Below, piece after piece: positions 16,672-26,896 of a stretch of 40,426 bases of DNA. The stretch's first letter is position 1, and every line of letters begins with the position of its first letter. The notes under the pieces are model-generated. The model saw nothing but the letters and a program-made list of their open reading frames with translations, was not told where the DNA came from and made no database searches. The position numbers were made by a program, and so were the translations under genes. Origin of the DNA: Levilactobacillus huananensis (GTDB lineage Bacteria > Bacillota > Bacilli > Lactobacillales > Lactobacillaceae); NCBI RefSeq assembly GCF_003946145.1, contig NZ_RHOC01000015.1, forward strand, positions 1 through 40,426, in the 5' to 3' direction.

Positions 16672-16820
16672 GTATGTTCACCCTACATCATGTTCCTTTC
16701 TCGACTGGGTATGGCTTAATGGTTATCGTGTCGACAGGGGACGCCTCAAAAAGCGCGCTCATGGTCGGGAGTCTTTGTTATAATAAAGATCGTTATAAAA
16801 CGACATTAGTGGGGGACAGG

Positions 16821-18035: not shown

Positions 18036-18072
18036 ATGTGCCCATTTGCCGCTTATCCCAGTCGTGTTGTCA

Positions 18073-18882
18073 TTACTTGAGGTGATAACGATCGCCATAC
18101 ATTTCCCATGACAGGGGACGCTTGAGTTGGAAATTCTTGTCGCGGATGAAGTGACGCTGAGCGGTCAGTCGTGAGAGGTCGTGGTGGGCAGCCTCCTGAC
18201 GCATGATGGGCGTGCGGGCCTTGAGAAATGCCTGGAGGTAGTGGGTTTCATTACCGCCCTGACGCGGCGTTTTAGCCAGTCGTTGGGCCTGGCGACGAAT
18301 GCCACCGAAGCTACTCTTACCGCTACCGGGACCGTGAACCACCATAGCATCGTAATAGATGTATTGTCCCAGTGGACTCAGATTGTCTTGCTTGGCCGCG
18401 TATAATACGGGATTCAGATATTCGGTATCTAGAATGTGATTTTCAGCTTGAATGAGCTGAGGGGTTTTGGCGGCTCGATGCCAAGCTTTGACAAAAGGCC
18501 GGCCAAGTCCACGATGAGTAGATGACCCCATGGCGTCCTTGAGGGCGGGTAAATAGGACTTGAGTTCATTATGATTAGGCTTCAAGTGGACGTAGCGTTG
18601 AATGACTTGGCGGAGATCGCCGTTGGCCGTCGTGAAACCAATGATACCGGCGGTGTAGCCGCGCCCGTCTCCGATGTCTTCAATGTAGCCGTATTGGTGG
18701 TGATAATTCGTGGTGGAATTTTCGGCACTTGCCACCAAGGAGAATGTGGTATCACGGCGTTGACCGGTTTTGATGGTATGCTCAGACTGATAGCCTGTGG
18801 TAGCGGCCGAAGACTGACAACCGGTTAGGGTGAGCGCCAATAGACTGATTAATGTGATTATTTTGAATGGCTGGTGTTTCAT
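18073..18882 (-). CDS. GH46 chitosanase, lipoprotein
   Basis: A 269-residue endo-acting chitosanase of glycoside hydrolase family 46, predicted to cut beta-1,4-linked glucosamine polymers. The N terminus is a lipoprotein signal with lipobox LTGC (Cys22), so it would be tethered to the outer face of the membrane. The catalytic region has SAENS and YGYIEDIGDGRGYTAGIIGF; Glu54 and Asp72 are 18 residues apart, the same spacing as the catalytic pair Glu22/Asp40 of the Streptomyces N174 enzyme. Length fits the family. ATG 18882 is preceded by AGAAAGAAG; an upstream in-frame GTG (18906) lies before it. In a lactobacillus it may feed on fungal or arthropod chitosan, or act on de-N-acetylated wall glycan. 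Confidence 0.9.
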   Translation of the reverse strand: MKHQPFKIITLISLLALTLTGCQSSAATTGYQSEHTIKTGQRRDTTFSLVASAENSTTNYHHQYGYIEDIGDGRGYTAGIIGFTTANGDLRQVIQRYVHLKPNHNELKSYLPALKDAMGSSTHRGLGRPFVKAWHRAAKTPQLIQAENHILDTEYLNPVLYAAKQDNLSPLGQYIYYDAMVVHGPGSGKSSFGGIRRQAQRLAKTPRQGGNETHYLQAFLKARTPIMRQEAAHHDLSRLTAQRHFIRDKNFQLKRPLSWEMYGDRYHLK

Positions 18883-18996
18883 GTGAACAGACTTCTTTCT
18901 CGGCACTGATATATTGTGTAGGACCTATACCCTAGTCTAACAAGATATCCTGAGGTCTAAAATGATTAGTTGGCGGTCTTAATTGTTGTTTAATTG

Positions 18997-19597
18997 TTAA
19001 TCTGTCGCATAATTTATTTTTAGACGATGGTCAATCGTTGGCAAGATAGGTCAATTCGGTTTTATCCACTGATGATTGTAGTACGCAACATGACTGGTAA
19101 TGGCCAATACTAATTCTTTGTAGCTGTGGAACTAATGATTATGAGCTGTTCCTACTTTGATAATGTGAAGGATACTTTCATTGTCTAGACATGTAGCATT
19201 AGCATTTCGGTCCAATATTTGAAAAACTTGGCCCGGCTTTAAAATGTCGATATATCGATAATTCTGATATTGAAAATTTTGATCTGGGTTAACGGGCATT
19301 CGGTATAATAATGCAGTCCAGTTAAGAATAAGTCTCTTTAGTGGTTTAGTAACGAAATTTGTTAACGTCTATAGCAAATTTTTGAATTGGTTTGATATTT
19401 TTGGTGAATCATAACGTAATAATTATTACTCGATAGTCTTGTGGTTTTCAATATCATAGCTGATTTAACGTTGAATTTCAGCCTCAGTTTAGTCATTGGT
19501 AAATGGTCGTATCTTTGATGCCATACTTTCCAACGAACTGAAGGTGTGACACATCTTGAAGAAATTTTCTTAATGCTTGTTGCTTAATCTTAGCCAT
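18997..19597 (-). pseudogene. Decayed IS3-family (IS150 group) transposase remnant
   Basis: No intact reading frame is present, but minus-strand translation recovers pieces in the right order. From ATG 19597: a short OrfA-like start, MAKIKQQALRKFLQDVS, then a helix-turn-helix piece (YGIKDTTIYQ) ending in a stop. Next come OrfB pieces: DVNKFRY (the TDVT-F catalytic Asp region), NPDQNFQYQNYRYIDILK (the HSDQGFQY region), then CLDNESILHIIKVGTAHNH, and after an in-frame stop FHSYKELVLAITSHVAYYN. Stops and deletions break the frame. The order and motifs match IS3 DDE transposases. Terminal inverted repeats were not found. It marks the edge of the AT-rich ECF block. Confidence 0.8.
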
Positions 19598-19600
19598 TAG

Positions 19601-19646
19601 TATAAAAGAACCCTCTGAATTAGATCTTTACTAATTCAGAGGGTTC
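19601..19646 (-). terminator. Terminator of the ECF operon
   Basis: A perfect 16-bp stem (19608-19623 with 19631-19646) around a 7-base loop, with TTTTATA following on the minus strand. It ends the operon just before the IS remnant. It also sits directly before the dead OrfA start, where it may once have shielded the element from read-through. Confidence 0.85.
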
Positions 19647-19750
19647 ACCCCAACTAGGGAAAATGGTTTAAAGTGAAAGCATTTTAACAGAACATGCTAG
19701 GATATTTGAATAGTTTTGGGGACCAGGCAAATAAAAAATCATTAGGACGA

Positions 19751-20569
19751 TTATGAAAATAATTCTGACTTAATGGCTACAGTAGCCTCTTTTAGCGTTA
19801 TGGGTTTTGACATAATACCAAGGTGTTTACAGATACCACATATGGATGGTTGTTCAATGTGAGCCTCGTTAATTAATTTTTCATCCCAAAAAACTGCTTT
19901 TGCAGTATCACGAGACAGAATTCTTTGATGAGTCATAACCAAGATGTCGTTGAAGTTATTTGATACAAAGTCCATATCATGAGAGATAACGATGACAGTT
20001 TTGCCCATTTTCTTTTGTGTACGTATGATTTTACTAAGGAGTTGATTTCCGAAAGTGTCTTGTCCAGCTGTTGGTTCGTCGAAAATGATAACGTCTGGGT
20101 TTAACGCTAGAACAGTTGCAATTGCAACAAATTTTCGAGTGGCTGGTGGCAAATCAAATGGATTCATGTCACGGTACCGATCTAGACCAGTCATGATAAG
20201 TGCGTGGTTGAGTTGTAATTTAATTTGAGCTTTTGGAAACTTTCGCAGTTTCAAACCAAAAAGAACTTCTTTTGCCACAGTGGCATGGAATATTTGTTCA
20301 TCGGGATCTTGAAATACATAGCCAACATATTTTGAGATTTCAGCCGTTGGAATACTCTGTGAGTCTAAACTATGAATATGAGCACTACCAGAGGTTGGGT
20401 GCAACAGGCCATTCATTAGTTTAGCTAGTGTTGATTTTCCCGAACCGTTCTGCCCAACAATGGCTAATTGATCACCTTGATTGAGGGTTAAATGAATTTG
20501 TTTAAGTGTAGGTTCGTCATTTTTGGGGTACTGGAAAGTAACGTTCTGGAGTTCAATCTGTGTTGTCAT
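19751..20569 (-). CDS. ECF transporter ATPase (EcfA2-like) with degenerate signature
   Basis: A 272-residue ABC ATPase, last gene of the operon. Walker A is GQNGSGKST (39-47), the Q-loop is FQDPDEQIF, and Walker B plus catalytic Glu is VIIFDEPTAGQD (Glu165). The H-loop is VISHD. Where LSGGQ or LSGGE is expected there is LPPATRKFVAIA (140-151). It would pair with the upstream ATPase to power a membrane ECF complex. Because each ATP site uses the signature of the other subunit, one of the two sites is probably impaired. The gene overlaps the previous one by 17 bases, implying translational coupling. Confidence 0.9.
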   Translation of the reverse strand: MTTQIELQNVTFQYPKNDEPTLKQIHLTLNQGDQLAIVGQNGSGKSTLAKLMNGLLHPTSGSAHIHSLDSQSIPTAEISKYVGYVFQDPDEQIFHATVAKEVLFGLKLRKFPKAQIKLQLNHALIMTGLDRYRDMNPFDLPPATRKFVAIATVLALNPDVIIFDEPTAGQDTFGNQLLSKIIRTQKKMGKTVIVISHDMDFVSNNFNDILVMTHQRILSRDTAKAVFWDEKLINEAHIEQPSICGICKHLGIMSKPITLKEATVAIKSELFS

Positions 20570-21419
20570 TTTTATTTTCCTCTTTGATTAATTTAACTGC
20601 TTCACCCTCAGTGACTGGAAAGTTGGCGTTTGTTGGTAGGCTAAGTTTCAATGAGCGTATTAATTGTGTTGCAGGAGGGACTTTGACACCAAAAGCACTA
20701 ATGTGTGGATTAGTTAAGACCTGGTGAGGGGTTCCTTTTTCTAGGAGATGTCCTTTGGCAAATAACAAAACTTCGTCAGCATATTTTGCAATAAGATCTG
20801 TTCTATGATCAACAAGTAGAATGGTTTTGTTTTTACTTTTCAAGTTGCAAATTATCTTGTATATTTTCTCGGCTGCCATAGGATCGAGCTGGCTAGTTGG
20901 TTCATCAATAATTAAAATATCTGGGTCGAGAACTAATACTGACGCAAAAGCAACTCGCTGGACTTGTCCCCCGGATAGTTTAAAGGGGTTACGGAGAGCT
21001 AAATCGCAAATATCACAATCATCCATAGCTCTGTTAACACGATTTTCGATCTCAAGAGGTGGCATACCAAAATTTTCAAGACCGAATGCTACCTCTTCAA
21101 AGACAGTTTCTTTAACACCACTGAGTTGAGAATAAGGATTTTGAAAGACAAATCCCATTAAGTGTGCTAACTGTGATTGTAGCTGACTAACGGGTATGCC
21201 ATTGATTTTAACTGTGCCTGTCAAAGTTCCCTTGTAAAATTTGGGAATAAATCCGCGAATGATAGAACAGAAAGTAGACTTTCCGGATCCGTTAGCTCCA
21301 ACGATACCGTAAAATTTTCCTTTTTCTAGTTGTACACTAATATTTGTTAAGGCTTGAGTATTATCAATTGCAATTGGATAGGAGTATGAAATGTTCTGGC
21401 AGTCAATAGCAATAGTCAA
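20553..21419 (-). CDS. ECF transporter ATPase (EcfA1-like)
   Basis: A 288-residue ABC ATPase with a complete set of motifs: Walker A GANGSGKST (41-49), Q-loop FQNPYSQLSG, signature LSGGQ (148-152) followed by VQRVAFA, Walker B LIIDEPTSQLDP (Glu173) and the H-loop LLVDHR. The Q-loop form and the paired organisation fit energy-coupling factor transporters, where two ATPases drive the T component. It overlaps the ecfT gene by four bases (ATGA). The extended C-terminal tail (about 240-288) is polar. It is distinct from the housekeeping EcfA pair, which normally sits in the ribosomal-protein region, so it probably serves this operon's S component alone. Confidence 0.92.
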   Translation of the reverse strand: MTIAIDCQNISYSYPIAIDNTQALTNISVQLEKGKFYGIVGANGSGKSTFCSIIRGFIPKFYKGTLTGTVKINGIPVSQLQSQLAHLMGFVFQNPYSQLSGVKETVFEEVAFGLENFGMPPLEIENRVNRAMDDCDICDLALRNPFKLSGGQVQRVAFASVLVLDPDILIIDEPTSQLDPMAAEKIYKIICNLKSKNKTILLVDHRTDLIAKYADEVLLFAKGHLLEKGTPHQVLTNPHISAFGVKVPPATQLIRSLKLSLPTNANFPVTEGEAVKLIKEENKNDNTD

Positions 21420-22225
21420 ATTAGTGCCCTCCCAATTAATATGAATCCTAATAAGATAATGACAAATGCAAGGCTAATGGATTCATATCCATTAGGTCTT
21501 ATGGTGACTAAAGTGGTTCGTGGTCCTTTGAGTGAAAAGCCACGAGCTTCAAGTGCTAATGAGCGTTCTTCAGCCTCCATAATAGCCCCAACGATTAAAG
21601 GAATGATTGCAGAGGAAAACGAAAGAAATTTAATACTGATCTTCCCTGTAGAATTGATTCCACGAGCACTTTGAACTTGGAAAATCTCCTTGCTTCGCTT
21701 GGTTAATGTAGAAACCATTCTCATCGTTGAAGAAAGGACGAATATGGCCCGGTAGTTCAGCCCTACGCTTTCCAATGACACAGTCATCTCATCAATAGTT
21801 GTTGTGTTCAAGAACCAGATAAACTCACTTGCAATATTTAGGATGAGTAGTCCTAGGAAAAAGCCATTTTGAACACCGGTACTATAGAGGTGTAGAAAGT
21901 AAAAGTGAAAAAGTAAGAATCCACCTTGAAGTGATAGGCTTTGAACTATTAGAATAAATAAGCTTAAAGAGAGTATGGCCTTGATTTGAGCGTAACATTT
22001 TTTGAAAATCCCACTGCCTCCAATTAAGAGCAGGATTAACAAAAAATTTGGAATAAGTAAAAGTGGAAGGTTAAGTGATGTTAATTTAAAAGTTTCTAGA
22101 ACTAATGTAATGGCAATAAGAAAAAAGCAAATAATAAATTTCGCAATAGGGTGGAGTCCTGCGATCTTATTTCTGTTTTGAGTTTGAATACTAGCAAGGT
22201 AATTAAGTTGCATCAGAATCATCAT
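21416..22225 (-). CDS. ECF transporter T component
   Basis: A 269-residue membrane protein with about six hydrophobic segments. The cytoplasmic coupling helices carry the two Ala-Arg-Gly motifs of EcfT, QSARGIN and LEARGF, which dock on the two ATPases. LHPIAKF near the N terminus is also typical. The ATG at 22225 overlaps the stop of the S-component gene (ATGA); an in-frame ATG at 22213 is better spaced from AAAGGA and may be the true start. As a dedicated EcfT it would form a complex with the products of the flanking genes. Confidence 0.9.
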   Translation of the reverse strand: MMILMQLNYLASIQTQNRNKIAGLHPIAKFIICFFLIAITLVLETFKLTSLNLPLLLIPNFLLILLLIGGSGIFKKCYAQIKAILSLSLFILIVQSLSLQGGFLLFHFYFLHLYSTGVQNGFFLGLLILNIASEFIWFLNTTTIDEMTVSLESVGLNYRAIFVLSSTMRMVSTLTKRSKEIFQVQSARGINSTGKISIKFLSFSSAIIPLIVGAIMEAEERSLALEARGFSLKGPRTTLVTIRPNGYESISLAFVIILLGFILIGRALI

Positions 22226-22836
22226 CCTTTAAGTCTAGTAGTTCCCCATTTAATATAGTTCTCACCAAAATCAAAACGAATGAGGAGTCGAGCTGGCATC
22301 ACTCGTATAACTAACCAGCAGATAACAAAAGAAATAACACGATCGAGAAGAGTGAAAATACCTTCTGTTCCAAAAACCGCCGTCCAAATATTTGTGCCGG
22401 AAGCCATTGCAACAGCGGTTATGATTGAGGTCCCACCGCCAGTGACACCACCGTAAACAAGTACAACGATGGGAACGGAGGTTAATATGGCGACTAAGGC
22501 TAAAATAAGCATTGATAGTAGCCATTTCCACCAGTTTGAAAAGAAATTAGCTTTTGCCAGTAATCCGGCAACAACACCGGTAAATATATTAACGATGATA
22601 AAAGGGAGATTGGTTGGGTTAGAAAGACTCATAAATATATTTGTGAGTGCGCCTGTTAGCACAGCCACCCAAGGTCCACAAAGTAGTGCAGAGAATAAGG
22701 TACCGATTGCATCCAAATAAAAGGGAAGCTTGAGCACAGTGGCCATTTGTCCACCTACAAAATTTACCGCAACGCCCAAGGGGATAATTAGTAGTGAAAG
22801 AATAGAGAGTTGGGTAGTATACTTTTTTAAAATCAT
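22222..22836 (-). CDS. ECF transporter substrate-binding S component
   Basis: A 204-residue, six-helix membrane protein. The segment LPFYLDAIGTLFSALLCGPW is highly characteristic of a class of ECF S components, and GALTNIFMSL fits the Ala-rich packing helix that contacts EcfT. S components bind the vitamin or nucleoside-like substrate. The substrate is not readable from sequence, but a nucleoside hydrolase and an MFS transporter are encoded just upstream, so a nucleoside or nucleobase-like compound is my inference. ATG 22836 follows GTGAGG; ATG 22854 has no site. The gap of about 195 bases before it may contain a second promoter. Confidence 0.85.
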   Translation of the reverse strand: MILKKYTTQLSILSLLIIPLGVAVNFVGGQMATVLKLPFYLDAIGTLFSALLCGPWVAVLTGALTNIFMSLSNPTNLPFIIVNIFTGVVAGLLAKANFFSNWWKWLLSMLILALVAILTSVPIVVLVYGGVTGGGTSIITAVAMASGTNIWTAVFGTEGIFTLLDRVISFVICWLVIRVMPARLLIRFDFGENYIKWGTTRLKG

Positions 22837-22890
22837 GATCAGCCTCACTTTCATTTAAGTGGTATAGCTTTGTTTCAACATAATCATCAT

Positions 22891-22928
22891 ATCATGAAAT
22901 GACTAACGTGAAACATGTCAAGTGTCAT
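22891..22928 (-). promoter_or_regulatory. Possible internal promoter and regulator site before the S component gene
   Basis: On the minus strand a perfect -35 TTGACA (22916-22921) is followed after 19 bases by CATGAT, a weak -10. The overlapping ATGACACTTGACA (22916-22928) matches 10 of 13 positions of ATGACAACTGTCA at 25272-25284 upstream of the Crp/Fnr gene. A long spacer and a shared motif suggest activator-dependent transcription. Confidence 0.4.
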
Positions 22929-23031
22929 CAAATCGATTTTTGACTTGTGTACAAATCGAAATTGGTATATATACTTGCCGATTAATTCAAAAAGACGATA
23001 CAATAAGTACCGTCCAAACAGACACCTGCCG

Positions 23032-23967
23032 TTAAGCTAGCGTTTTAAAAATATAGTTCTTATATAGTTGCGGATCGAGTTTACTACAGATATAAGCGTT
23101 TGGTTCTTTTCCTAAAACATTGTTAACGTCAACTAACATGGCACCATAACTTGGGCCCTTATTAGTATCAACTTCACAATAGTACTTATCACAATCAACA
23201 ATGCAATCAGGATAAAGTGCTGCCGCGATGGCTGAAGGATCAGCCATATCTAAGTATTCTCCACCGAACCGTTTTACGTTCATTTCTAACAAATCCTTGT
23301 TAACGTCAATAGTGAATTTGCCAAGAGTGCTTTCGGATTTGATCTTTTTAATATCTTCAGGTGTCAGCATTGACTTTCCGAGGCTAGCATCCCAACCAAC
23401 ATAAATGAGGTTATCTAGGCCGGCTTCAGTGACAATTTTTGCTGATTCTGGATCTTGCCAAATATTGAATTCCGCAACTGGACTGGCATTTCCTCTTCCT
23501 AAGCCAGCAGTACCCATGACTACAATTCGGCCAGCTTTTTTTACAGCGTCTAAGTTTAGTCTGATTGCAAGCGCGATATTGGTTAGTGGTCCGATAGCGA
23601 TGATATCAATTTCACCATCTTGACTGGCTTCTAATAGCTCCACCATCTTAATAACACTGTTTTCATTTTCAGCTGTTAGCCTGGTAGGAACAATACCAAT
23701 ATCACCCATACCATCATTTCCATGGGTTTCATGAGCATAAACCATGTTTCGGAGAAGCATATGGTCTGCTCCGACGTAAACGGGAGGTTCATAGCTACCA
23801 GCGTGTTCGATAGTGGAAAGAGTATTTTGAGTTGCTTGTGTAACGTGAACGTTTCCTGATACTGTTGAGAACATGATAATTTCATACTTAGGATCATTTA
23901 GAGCCATTGCAATGGCCATTGCGTCATCAGAACCACAATCTGTATCGATAATTAGCTTTTTTTTCAT
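23032..23967 (-). CDS. Nucleoside hydrolase (IUNH family)
   Basis: A 311-residue N-ribohydrolase-like protein. The N-terminal calcium-binding motif is DTDCGSDDA (Asp10, Asp14, Asp15), where most family members have DTDPGIDDA. HGNDGMGD, GPLTN and AEFNIWQDP follow as in the family. Near the C terminus the usual HD pair before PxA reads MADPSAIA (Ala242-Asp243): the metal-binding Asp is kept but the preceding His is lost. It should split a nucleoside to base and ribose in the cytosol, but specificity may be unusual. ATG 23967 follows TAGGAG, 10 bases after the transporter stop. Its place between an MFS and an ECF transporter suggests it processes what they import. Confidence 0.9.
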   Translation of the reverse strand: MKKKLIIDTDCGSDDAMAIAMALNDPKYEIIMFSTVSGNVHVTQATQNTLSTIEHAGSYEPPVYVGADHMLLRNMVYAHETHGNDGMGDIGIVPTRLTAENENSVIKMVELLEASQDGEIDIIAIGPLTNIALAIRLNLDAVKKAGRIVVMGTAGLGRGNASPVAEFNIWQDPESAKIVTEAGLDNLIYVGWDASLGKSMLTPEDIKKIKSESTLGKFTIDVNKDLLEMNVKRFGGEYLDMADPSAIAAALYPDCIVDCDKYYCEVDTNKGPSYGAMLVDVNNVLGKEPNAYICSKLDPQLYKNYIFKTLA

Positions 23968-23977
23968 TATTATTCTC

Positions 23978-25174
23978 CTACACTTCAATTTGTTCAGACG
24001 GAATTTTTGTTTCGGTTGTATCCAGTTTTAGAACAAGCGCTGCGACAACACAGATAGCCAGCATTGCTAGTGAGAAGGTAAAGGCGGATTTTAATCCGAA
24101 ACTAGCAACTACAGCACCGGTAATCATTGGTGTTAAGAAATCACCTGCACCGCTAGCTGTTGCTACTAGTGAGCTTGCAATACTCATATGTTTGTACCCG
24201 ATTCGTGTTGAGATAGCAACAATGACGCTGAATAATACACCTAAGAACAATCCGGCAATAAACAGGCAGATGAAGTAGGCTTGTGCTGTGTTAATAGCTA
24301 AAGCAATTGCGATAGCTACGAATGCTCCTGCACAATTCATCATGAGAACAGTTTGACTCTTGATAAAGCGTAGAACGACCATGAAGACAAATCCACCAAT
24401 CACGCATCCGATGTTGTAAACCGTAAACATGAAAGCGGCATTTGAAGGAGAAACACCAATGCTTTGGGCAAAAGAAGCAATGTAGAGTCCTAATGCACTT
24501 GAGAGAGCGCTGAAGGCAAAAACCACAATGAAGATAGAGATGTAAGAAACAATTGCATTTTTTGTGTATAAAGGTTTAACGGGTTCGGCATCCTCAGGAT
24601 TTCCATCAGTGGATTTCTTTTGAATCTTAGCAAATGGAATGAGAATTAGCATAAGCACTGCAAACGCTGCCAAAACATAGTAAGATAAATAAAATGGTAA
24701 TTTTCCTTTTAAGAAAACACCAATCAGAAATGGTGCAACGAATGTCCCAACACCGAAGAGACCTTGACCACCGCTGAGGGATCCATCATAGGAATTTTTA
24801 GAGAATGCGTAACTTAGTAAGACAGGGGTTGTGGCATCTTGAGAGCCCATGCCAACACCACCAATAAAGGTAAATACAAGTCCGGCATAGAAACTCTGGA
24901 AGGTTGGAACACCCGCTAAGAAAATGCCGGTAAGTAATACACCCACAAAAAGAACTTTTAAAGAACCTAATTTTTCTACCAGTTTTCCAGTAATTAGAAC
25001 TGTTAGAATTCGACCTAGCGCGTAAGCAGATCCAAGAATAACAACCTTGCTGATTGGCATGTGATACATGTCAACTAATTGGGGCATACTACTACCAACC
25101 ATGACACAGGCAGCACCAGTTAGAAAGTACATGGCAAAGGCCAGGAAACCTACTAAAAACTTATTCGATTTCAT
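23978..25174 (-). CDS. MFS transporter
   Basis: A 398-residue major facilitator protein with 12 predicted membrane helices and a polar central loop (about 185-205, IQKKSTDGNPEDAEPVK). The region between helices 2 and 3, GKLVEKLGSLKVLFVG, fits the MFS G-x-L-x-D-R-x-G loop in a degenerate form. GGVGMGSQDATTPVL is a conserved helix 4 segment of sugar or nucleoside permease-like MFS members. First gene of the operon. ATG 25174 follows GGAGATG. Substrate not determined; from the neighbours it could import a nucleoside or export the freed base. Confidence 0.88.
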   Translation of the reverse strand: MKSNKFLVGFLAFAMYFLTGAACVMVGSSMPQLVDMYHMPISKVVILGSAYALGRILTVLITGKLVEKLGSLKVLFVGVLLTGIFLAGVPTFQSFYAGLVFTFIGGVGMGSQDATTPVLLSYAFSKNSYDGSLSGGQGLFGVGTFVAPFLIGVFLKGKLPFYLSYYVLAAFAVLMLILIPFAKIQKKSTDGNPEDAEPVKPLYTKNAIVSYISIFIVVFAFSALSSALGLYIASFAQSIGVSPSNAAFMFTVYNIGCVIGGFVFMVVLRFIKSQTVLMMNCAGAFVAIAIALAINTAQAYFICLFIAGLFLGVLFSVIVAISTRIGYKHMSIASSLVATASGAGDFLTPMITGAVVASFGLKSAFTFSLAMLAICVVAALVLKLDTTETKIPSEQIEV

Positions 25175-25216
25175 TTTCTACATCTCCTATTTTGATTTTG
25201 TTAACTAAGGGGAAAG

Positions 25217-25284
25217 ATAATTCAACGTTAATTAACTGACTTCAAATTATCATGACATGTGTTCATGGTAAATGACAACTGTCA
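25217..25284. promoter_or_regulatory. Divergent promoter region with paired palindromes
   Basis: Toward the MFS gene (minus strand) TTGAAG (25240-25245) and AATTAT (25217-25222) are separated by 17 bases. Just upstream lie CATGA-N7-TCATG (25251-25267) and the palindrome TGACA-AC-TGTCA (25273-25284). Both fit the dyad symmetry of Crp/Fnr-family sites, and the regulator gene starts at 25311. Confidence 0.5.
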
Positions 25285-25310
25285 CTCTTTGAAGTTTAGG
25301 AGGCTGCTTT

Positions 25311-25988
25311 ATGAAGACAAATTATGAAGAAGAACTATTACTGATTTTGAATGATAAAGGGTCATCTTTACGTAGCGAGAACATAACTGGTAAGTTACAA
25401 CACTATGCATCCAATGACATTATTGTTAACCAACAAGATGACATTACTGATTTTTGTATTTTAATTAATGGCAGTGCATCGGTTTGGAATAAGATTGCAT
25501 GGGATGAGGGACAAATTGTGGGTCATGTATATCCTCTGGAAATTTTAGGATTAATTGAATATTTAAATGACATCAAATTTTATACAGCTGATGTGATGGC
25601 TGAATCTGAATGCCTAGTCTACAAAATTCCAACTAGGAATTTTATGAAGTCAATTTTGAAGAATGGCAGTCTCGGTTTGATGACTTTAAAAAAATTTGCG
25701 ATTAGTGTTTCTTTAAACATGACAAATGCTGAGAAAAAGACACTTTTTAAAGGAGTAGATATCTTAGGGCACTACTTATATGTACAGGCACAAGGGAAGA
25801 TACCGTATGTTTGTCCGTTTACACGACAGGAGCTAGCTGATAAATTGAAGATAAACCTTCGAACTTTATATCGTTATATTGTGGTTTTGGGGAAGCAGGA
25901 TCACTTAGAAGTTCGACGTGGAAAAATTACAATTACAGGAAAGCAGTTTATTCAATTACAAAAAAGATATCAAAAGATCATTTTTTGA
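25311..25988 (+). CDS. Crp/Fnr-family transcriptional regulator
   Basis: A 225-residue regulator. Residues 20-125 form a cyclic-nucleotide-binding-like beta barrel (FCILINGSASVWNK, VYPLEILGLIEYLN), without the Arg/Ser phosphate-binding cassette needed for cAMP and without an Fnr Cys cluster. Residues 150-215 are a winged helix-turn-helix: TRQELADKLKINLRTLYRYI is the recognition element. ATG 25311 follows AGGAGG. It is divergent from the MFS/nucleoside hydrolase/ECF operon and most likely controls it, perhaps in response to the imported compound. The gene is AT-rich like the operon, unlike the gene that follows. Confidence 0.88.
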   Translation: MKTNYEEELLLILNDKGSSLRSENITGKLQHYASNDIIVNQQDDITDFCILINGSASVWNKIAWDEGQIVGHVYPLEILGLIEYLNDIKFYTADVMAESECLVYKIPTRNFMKSILKNGSLGLMTLKKFAISVSLNMTNAEKKTLFKGVDILGHYLYVQAQGKIPYVCPFTRQELADKLKINLRTLYRYIVVLGKQDHLEVRRGKITITGKQFIQLQKRYQKIIF

Positions 25989-26046
25989 AGCATACATCAC
26001 TTGTTGGTGAAGGTTTTACTATATGTGTGATGAGACATCAATTCGG

Positions 26047-26052
26047 TATAAT
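26047..26052 (+). promoter_or_regulatory. -10 element of the XRE/Rgg-like regulator gene
   Basis: A consensus TATAAT lies 29 bases before the chosen ATG. No good -35 is visible at 16-18 bases upstream. It also shows that transcription starts downstream of the Crp/Fnr gene end. Confidence 0.45.
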
Positions 26053-26080
26053 GAAGCAACCAGCAAGGGAGGCTATTACG

Positions 26081-26896
26081 ATGAGTTTAGGCACGACAAT
26101 CAAACAGGTTCGCCTGCAGCGGCATCTGACGCAGCGTGAGGTTGCTCAGGACATCTGTGCGCAGTCTATGCTGTCGGCAATCGAAAACGACCGCTATACG
26201 CCCAATGCGACGCTTTTAATGCGGTTATGTGAACGACTGGCAATCAGTCTAAATGAGATCAGTCTGGCCAAGAACTTCGACGTGGGGCCGCAGGTGGCGT
26301 TTAACCAGCGAGTTGAGGAGCTCTGTAACCAGCATCAATATGCAGAACTTCAGGCCTTTTTGAAGCAAGACGATGTGATAGCCGCGATTGACTCCGACGA
26401 GCAGACACAGGCCTATTACTATTATTTAGGCGTGACAGAAATTCAGCTAGGACCAGATCTCGTTGCTGCGGAACAGGACTTTCACTTGAGCCTAGCGAGT
26501 GCGGTGAGCAGTCGCGCGACGACCCTGACTCGGATTGCCCAGATGTCGCTGGCCTTGGTTCGGGGACGTCAGCAACGGCAAGTAGATGGTCAGAAACTTG
26601 TGACCACGGCGCTGACAGATTTAGCCAATAGTCCTTATGAAGAAAATCTAAACATTTTGTTTTACCTAGCGGCGCTCTTTGATTTTGAAGCGCAACGGGA
26701 TAACGAGGCCATGCAACGACTCATAGTGGGGATTCAATTTGCAACTGACCATAACTCCCATTATCTATTAGCAAATGATTACCACCTGTTGGCTGTGATC
26801 GCTGAACGCAGTGAACGCTTGGTAGACGAGAACTATCATCAATCCGAGAAATTACTCACTAAACTCTTTCACGAAAAAATATACGACCGTTTCTAA
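26081..26896 (+). CDS. XRE-family (Rgg/PlcR-like) transcriptional regulator
   Basis: A 271-residue protein. Residues 1-60 are an XRE helix-turn-helix (GTTIKQVRLQRHLTQREVA, then MLSAIENDRYTPN). The rest is helical with TPR-like spacing (QAYYYYLGVTEIQLG, NILFYLAALFDFEAQ), as in Rgg, PlcR and PrgX regulators that sense short peptides. ATG 26081 follows AAGGGAGG. An in-frame extension to 25985 would overlap the Crp gene and lacks a site. No obvious small peptide pheromone gene is beside it, so peptide sensing is an inference from family. The next gene, an SRPBCC protein, may be a target or simply a neighbour. Confidence 0.85.
   Translation: MSLGTTIKQVRLQRHLTQREVAQDICAQSMLSAIENDRYTPNATLLMRLCERLAISLNEISLAKNFDVGPQVAFNQRVEELCNQHQYAELQAFLKQDDVIAAIDSDEQTQAYYYYLGVTEIQLGPDLVAAEQDFHLSLASAVSSRATTLTRIAQMSLALVRGRQQRQVDGQKLVTTALTDLANSPYEENLNILFYLAALFDFEAQRDNEAMQRLIVGIQFATDHNSHYLLANDYHLLAVIAERSERLVDENYHQSEKLLTKLFHEKIYDRF

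Follow-up and report, generated by a model that had tools for sequence, protein, structure and literature searches.

A horizontally acquired gene block in Levilactobacillus huananensis that probably imports and cleaves a nucleoside

A seven-gene block with a proposed role in nucleoside uptake and cleavage

A stretch of 40,426 nucleotides from Levilactobacillus huananensis (contig NZ_RHOC01000015.1, positions 1 to 40,426; hereafter the window) contains an intact, horizontally acquired block of seven genes. They encode a Crp-like regulator, a major facilitator superfamily (MFS) transporter, a nucleoside hydrolase (NH) and the S, T, A1 and A2 components of an energy-coupling factor (ECF) transporter. 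We propose that the block is probably a self-regulated operon that takes up a nucleoside and splits it inside the cell; this is the reading that accounts for every part of the block. In this mechanism, the S component would bind the nucleoside outside the cell, the dedicated T-A1-A2 motor would power its import with ATP, and the hydrolase would cleave it to ribose and base. The MFS protein would most likely export a base unusable to the cell, the alternative being a role as a second importer.

All seven genes are open frames, and six contiguous minus-strand genes lie opposite the plus-strand Crp-like gene:

19751..20569, minus strand: EcfA2-like ATPase (PF00005 match; Walker A and Walker B kept, non-canonical signature)
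20553..21419, minus strand: EcfA1-like ATPase (PF00005 match; LSGGQ kept)
21416..22225, minus strand: EcfT-like transmembrane component (PF02361, CbiQ-type)
22222..22854, minus strand: ECF S component (PF12822; relative of the CD3073 family, NF045596)
23032..23967, minus strand: nucleoside hydrolase (PF01156; ATG start)
23978..25174, minus strand: MFS transporter (PF07690, MFS_1)
25311..25988, plus strand: Crp/Fnr-type regulator (PF00027, cNMP-binding)

With S, T and two ATPases in one run (PF12822, PF02361 and twice PF00005), the transporter appears to be of the ECF group I type. A preliminary description of this DNA, made from the sequence alone, had reported six minus-strand genes facing a Crp/Fnr-family gene, and their positions, open frames and domains are borne out here. 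The same holds for the close packing it described everywhere except before S: the S/T, T/A1 and A1/A2 pairs overlap and just 10 bp separate MFS from NH. The single large gap of the six-gene run, upstream of S, measures 177 bp. An alternative TTG start of NH would place that gene end at 23988.

The block was inserted between copies of a short direct repeat

To compare this site with that of related genomes, we sought the protein of the right-hand neighbouring gene (26081-26896) in 35 genomes of the genus, that of the host included. It was matched in all 35, in many weakly, and with 82-90% identity in three (G279, G159 and G135), from each of which 16 kb was compared with the window (L107-L109). 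In these sisters, blastn alignments to window positions 18067/18077-19066 run straight into 26032/26038-29748/29754, so that the block is missing at that site in all three closest congeners compared. The junctions in the window are as follows:

19051..19060, plus strand: left copy of a 10-bp direct repeat, TCAATTCGGT (junction letters)
19061..26037, no strand: inserted segment of 6,977 bp (blastn against the three sister genomes; junction letters)
26038..26047, plus strand: right copy of the 10-bp direct repeat, TCAATTCGGT (junction letters)

The sisters hold a single repeat copy at the site, which reads TCAGTTCGGT in two of them (one mismatch) and TCAGTTCAGT in the third (two mismatches). The genes had been placed correctly in the preliminary description; the foreign segment spans 19061-26037 rather than 18997-25988.

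The base composition of the block also differs from that of its host. The GC content of the seven genes is 0.33-0.41, against 0.50 (sd 0.033) in 75 other open reading frames (ORFs) of at least 120 aa, drawn from the window plus five further genome stretches (z of -2.7 to -5.2). At third codon positions (GC3) the values are 0.30-0.36 and 0.55 (sd 0.065; z of -2.9 to -3.9). In addition, the hydrolase clade (E-value up to 1e-80) was found in one of 301 Lactobacillaceae genomes, namely this host, and in none of the 14 other congeners among them. Absence from three of three sisters, the flanking 10-bp repeat, the occurrence in one of 301 genomes and the unequal composition together make horizontal acquisition well supported, as had been suspected from the AT-richness of the block. 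Had the sisters lost the block through recombination between the repeats, the joint would be identical; insertion is favoured by the taxonomic spread and by the composition. The left flank also differs in ways unrelated to the insert: the sisters carry about 3 kb more at 16687 to about 16771 and another 0.7-3 kb at about 17985 to 18067/18077, so the site is not an otherwise quiet stretch.

Two features lie between the left repeat copy and the A2 gene:

19067..19607, no strand: debris, apparently non-coding, in which frames are short and broken (four pieces scanned, none matching a Pfam family above cut-off; IS3 origin unconfirmed)
19608..19646, minus strand: strong terminator-like hairpin with a 16-bp stem, downstream of A2

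A dead IS3 element had been proposed to border the block at this end. This was not confirmed: the four pieces searched against Pfam gave just a sub-threshold match to DUF5045. These broken frames and the AT-richness would suit a view of the block as inert passenger DNA heading for decay. We regard this as very unlikely, since all seven genes are open, their metal-binding and nucleotide-binding motifs are kept, and so is the operator-like site described below. Plasmid carriage was also considered and dropped: the S component matches 47 plasmid records, all below 60% identity, and the hydrolase (E-value up to 1e-60) matches two, at 37.5-38.5% identity.

Related loci link the transporter to nucleoside-acting enzymes

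The S component had no match to a named vitamin S family in Pfam or NCBIfam at E-values up to 0.001, and no match to solved structures by sequence at E-values up to 1. It is related to the CD3073 family (NF045596), scoring 119.1 bits against a curated cut-off of 180. One scan of a named genome collection yielded 34 related loci, divided by a score threshold on S into 26 close and eight distant ones. Profiles made from these same loci served to count their gene families, and some of the misses are cuts at contig ends.

The close loci belong to 23 Firmicutes, mostly clostridia, and to Leptolinea, Pleomorphochaeta and Treponema. T was present in all 26, A1 in 25 and A2 in 24. Among enzymes, uridine-phosphorylase-like genes were the most frequent (20 of 26), followed by NH (19) and TudS-related genes (18, one cut by a contig end); isomerase-like (12), TenA-like (5) and DeoB (3) genes were minor partners. 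MFS genes occurred in 19 and Crp relatives in 17 of the loci. In the eight distant loci, S, T, A1 and A2 were the only families seen at the thresholds used, MFS, Crp and all of the enzyme families being absent; one of them (L075) has a hydrolase below threshold.

The gene order of the window, Crp / MFS-NH-S-T-A1-A2, recurs unchanged in Robinsoniella peoriensis (L071). This and two other Lachnospiraceae loci, from Diplocloster (L059 and L061), share the S, T, A1, A2, MFS, NH and Crp families with the window. The Diplocloster loci are among the fullest, and L071 is the closest in gene order. Unlike the window, most relatives also carry uridine-phosphorylase-like and TudS-related genes; isomerase-like, TenA-like or DeoB genes are present in some. 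In a tree of S components, the window groups with the Paucilactobacillus protein, L070 and Robinsoniella (100/93), although these rows are long-branched. The S component of Paucilactobacillus sp. N302-9, the one other named lactobacillus among the 120 matches listed, is 79% identical to that of the window. The hydrolase tree places the window with P0122 and P0123 rather than with Robinsoniella. As the two placements differ, a single donor is not proven. If this picture is right, the relatives point to a clostridium-like source from which the block would have moved into a lactobacillus.

The names of the partner families rest on one scanned representative each. The TudS-related protein scored 162.8 bits against NF045597 (CD3072; cut-off 130), the uridine-phosphorylase-like protein 240 bits against TIGR01718 (cut-off 280), the TenA-like protein 121 bits against thiaminase II (cut-off 130) and DeoB 567 bits against phosphopentomutase (cut-off 341). 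The isomerase-like protein matched PF24856 (AraA central) at 25.1 with a cut-off of 24, and otherwise only sub-threshold isomerases. All 22 TudS-related sequences retain the first Cys and Cys-Pro-Glu, and the third Cys is kept in all 21 that are readable there. These residues correspond to the cluster ligands and the Glu of TudS as given in a section of PMC10611767 on TudS/RudS. Three of the four TudS-related proteins of Lactobacillaceae have Asn in place of one of the two catalytic Ser.

The association extends to Lactobacillaceae. The CD3073 model matched 124 of the 301 genomes, many weakly, and in four above the cut-off. In each of these four a TudS-like gene adjoins S, which is not so in the window host; they are four of the five genomes matched by the TudS-related model, three of them above its cut-off. 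Among the other best-scoring CD3073-like S loci (L017-L041, the window excluded), 19 of 25 have a hydrolase next to S, and the remaining six have none within the 3.5 kb read. CD3073-like S components are thus repeatedly tied to nucleoside- or base-acting enzymes. The preliminary expectation of a nucleoside-like substrate that would be split on entry draws support from the gene context of the 26 close loci.

The private ECF set beside a hydrolase, remarked on in the preliminary description, is not the only one of this host: contig C30 (L042, 3279-14680) bears another complete S-T-A1-A2 operon with a hydrolase, of a different type. This second operon also holds MFS, TrpF-like, PfkB, HAD and iron-ADH genes and faces a LacI-PfkB fusion regulator (HAD, MFS and LacI-PfkB were named by eye).

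A conserved palindrome beside the regulator gene

The Crp-like protein may, whatever the sign of its effect, bind a palindrome of consensus TGACA-N2-TGTCA between its own gene and the MFS gene, as well as weaker copies before S. Candidate control elements in the window are:

22909..22927, plus strand: two overlapping one-mismatch copies of the palindrome, upstream of S
22993..23015, minus strand: hairpin resembling a terminator, in the gap that separates NH from S (found by a pattern with 11 matches in 7.3 kb, where 4.6 are expected)
25249..25278, minus strand: promoter-like site for MFS-NH, its first hexamer overlapping the palindrome (consensus match only; 30 such sites, 22 expected)
25273..25284, plus strand: perfect operator-like palindrome TGACAACTGTCA, the sole perfect copy in the window, between regulator and MFS

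The palindrome was first noticed in the MFS-Crp gap of the window, before the relatives were tested. In the first test, at the equivalent place in Crp-bearing loci, 11 of 17 were positive, ten with a perfect copy and one with a single mismatch. Over all 26 close loci, 14 perfect copies were found in 379,908 bases, where about 0.36 are expected by uniform chance and none appeared in shuffles. Twelve of these stand beside Crp, in 12 of the 17 Crp-bearing loci, with one upstream of S (L070) and one elsewhere (L053). Robinsoniella and both Diplocloster loci have a perfect copy beside Crp, as the window does. Within the window, six copies with at most one mismatch compare with 1.9 expected, and three of 100 shuffles reach six. 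The host genome contains four perfect copies and none of the reversed control, with about two expected at equal base use. Of the other three, placed by eye, one lies in a GntR-like/GNAT-like gap, one within a large ORF that resembles a surface protein gene, and one in intergenic DNA; all three may be chance occurrences. The conservation of this motif suggests that TGACA-N2-TGTCA is likely the operator of the block regulator, and it offers a handle for an inducer search.

The hairpin at 22993-23015 and the palindrome copies before S fit the 177-bp gap, so MFS-NH and S-T-A1-A2 could form two co-controlled transcription units, as judged from these patterns. Riboswitch control of the block was dropped after a scan of window positions 18500-26500, in which the only matches were sub-threshold ones of plastid 3'UTR models to the terminator hairpin.

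An unusual nucleoside hydrolase

The window NH belongs to PF01156 (258.8 bits, cut-off 34.2), and its N-terminal DxDxxxDD metal motif is intact (DTDCGSDD). The other loop His (THGNDG) is kept. In the HDP motif, His is replaced by Ala (MADP), so the enzyme departs from group I nucleoside hydrolases, which have His before the last metal-binding Asp. The window and all 17 aligned clade relatives have Ala here, in an alignment that left out the L054 and L055 hydrolases. The five other hydrolases of the host have His at this position, as does L019, whereas the distant L075 has Cys.

In Lactobacillaceae, hydrolase-S pairs with no neighbouring T gene were observed in 18 loci (L018, L023-L036 and L038-L040). 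These resemble the window in joining a CD3073-like S to a hydrolase without the classical His (e.g. L024 and L026). They differ in having no T gene in the 3.5 kb read, and presumably share a housekeeping motor; they also have Asn (18 of 18) where the window has Ala. The idea that S-linked hydrolases in general are devoid of this His was dropped, as the second system of the host and locus L019 keep it.

A rival reading is that the block takes up common purine or pyrimidine nucleosides as a source of ribose and bases, and that the link to modified nucleosides seen in relatives is secondary. The NCBIfam matches of NH are RihC (194 bits), RihB, UriH and RihA, all far under their cut-offs, and its best PDB match is 3t8i, a purine nucleosidase that we take to be one of the Sulfolobus solfataricus enzymes. 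According to a passage of PMC8910321, the position before the last metal-binding Asp serves leaving-group activation (by His, Trp or Cys), and both S. solfataricus hydrolases are without a homologue of the His. The Ala-for-His change is thus unusual but has precedent. Together with the missing desulfidase in the window host and Robinsoniella, this makes ordinary nucleosides a substantial possibility, which we hold at somewhat over one chance in three. Against it, the host already has five other hydrolases, so that a sixth one, equipped with an ATP-driven importer of its own, suggests a substrate that is scarce and special, and the relatives tie the hydrolase to a TudS-related gene (18 of 26 loci).

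Which nucleoside is imported?

That the substrate is a nucleoside of some kind appears likely from the gene content, a claim we make with slightly more confidence than that of the operon as a whole. The linked genes would narrow it to one that fits the hydrolase, the uridine-phosphorylase-like and the TudS-related enzymes together. Given the TudS-related, phosphorylase-like and TenA-like partners, the leading candidate for the ancestral substrate is a modified pyrimidine nucleoside derived from RNA, perhaps one that carries sulfur. We consider such a substrate plausible for the locus family at large, though short of an even chance. For the desulfidase-less branch that includes the window it is more doubtful: those partners do not stand alongside in this branch, so an ordinary nucleoside stays a serious rival. 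At two S residues (Thr49 to Ala and Ala84 to Pro), all 18 TudS-linked loci differ from the window, P0002, L070 and L071, a difference that is confounded by common descent.

A more specific and rather unlikely version is that the locus family scavenges sulfur- or otherwise hypermodified tRNA wobble uridines, for example of the mnm5s2U type, the window and Robinsoniella being a stripped branch. Here ECF import would be followed by TudS-related desulfidation, TenA-like removal of the side chain and cleavage by phosphorylase or hydrolase. Both the TenA-like step and the choice of wobble uridines are extrapolated from TenA chemistry. In the stripped branch, the His-less hydrolase would free ribose from the modified nucleoside and the MFS protein would expel the modified base.

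Cofactor ribosides or 2'-O-methyl nucleosides, in place of a base-modified nucleoside, are an improbable cargo. Hydrolases of the superfamily act on nicotinamide riboside, as a passage of PMC8910321 states, and, according to PMC6278475, cleave 2'-O-methyl nucleosides, one such enzyme being from Lactobacillus buchneri; a TenA-like gene in five of the 26 loci would also suit such substrates. The uridine-phosphorylase-like (20 of 26) and TudS-related (18 of 26) partners point instead to pyrimidine bases. Deoxyribose-phosphate aldolase, named as a partner in that part of PMC6278475, was absent among the neighbour clusters scanned, which are not all of them.

In the openly licensed PMC literature, the closest parallel found to this pairing of ECF transporter and nucleoside hydrolase is queuosine salvage; a Lactobacillus plantarum proteome paper (PMC5654829) mentions each of the two once, and a plant-extract paper that also came up is unrelated. 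Clostridioides difficile queK-qrtT-queL shares the logic of a PF12822 S component with a nucleoside hydrolase, as described in parts of PMC11477304 and PMC11130926; we compared it by context rather than by QueK sequence. That locus is CD1682/84, not CD3073, and no preQ1 riboswitch was among the matches up to an E-value of 0.5 in window positions 18500-26500. The host genome, rated 99.96% complete, had no match to the tRNA-guanine transglycosylase model TIGR00430, which was positive in 14 of 14 control genomes, so there is probably no queuosine in the tRNA of this host. We exclude queuosine salvage on this ground, leaving it a negligible residual chance. No paper on CD3073 was found in the same literature, nor a substrate in print for a CD3073-like S component.

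Several observations weigh against uptake and cleavage of a nucleoside as proposed here, or against the modified-pyrimidine variant of it. The S component falls short of the curated CD3073 cut-off, and the MFS family is too broad to indicate transport direction. No hydrolase was found in seven and no TudS-related gene in eight of the 26 close loci over the stretch read (some cut by contig ends), and CD3073 proper (four loci, L012-L015) has no hydrolase in the 3.5 kb read. The missing His could also signal low NH activity. A perfect palindrome is absent from four of the 17 Crp loci (L054, L055, L060 and L063), and one further Crp locus has a one-mismatch copy. The TudS-related protein is a putative desulfidase: it scored 19.7 bits against PF04463 (2-thiouracil desulfurase; cut-off 34.7), and a search of solved structures gave chance-level sequence matches alone. 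Genome-wide, no TudS-related gene was found in the window host (the same search was positive in five of 301 family genomes) or in Robinsoniella (positive in two of four genomes), so sulfur may be irrelevant here. The uridine-phosphorylase-like protein was likewise not found in the host, in a search that had no positive control.

Little is known of the fate of modified nucleosides after their release from RNA. If the proposed uptake and cleavage is true, a nucleoside-carrying ECF branch would be added besides that for queuosine, with one version seen moving from a clostridium-like source to a lactobacillus.

Other features of the related loci

Some of the related loci have further genes around the transporter. 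In L068 and L069, the first locus is immediately followed, from about 16511, by another S-T-A1 set that differs from it. A YjjI-family glycyl radical enzyme (scanned in L065) is part of the S-T-A1-A2 locus in L063, L065 and L066, beside an activase-like partner named by eye. In L074, L077 and L079 (Oceanobacillus and Gracilibacillus), a distant S-T-A1-A2 set with a CD3073-like S has conserved neighbours, namely weakly ureidoglycolate-lyase-like, IF-2B-like and BtpA-like genes and a LacI-PfkB fusion match.

The A2 ATPases have a signature of their own. At the position where A1 of the window has LSGGQ, its A2 reads DLPPATRKF. The same departure was seen in all 32 related loci compared, where A2 has xLPxxxRKF or xIPxxxRKF. 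Walker A of A2 is kept throughout, Walker B is kept except in L058, and the A1 of these loci retains SGGQ.

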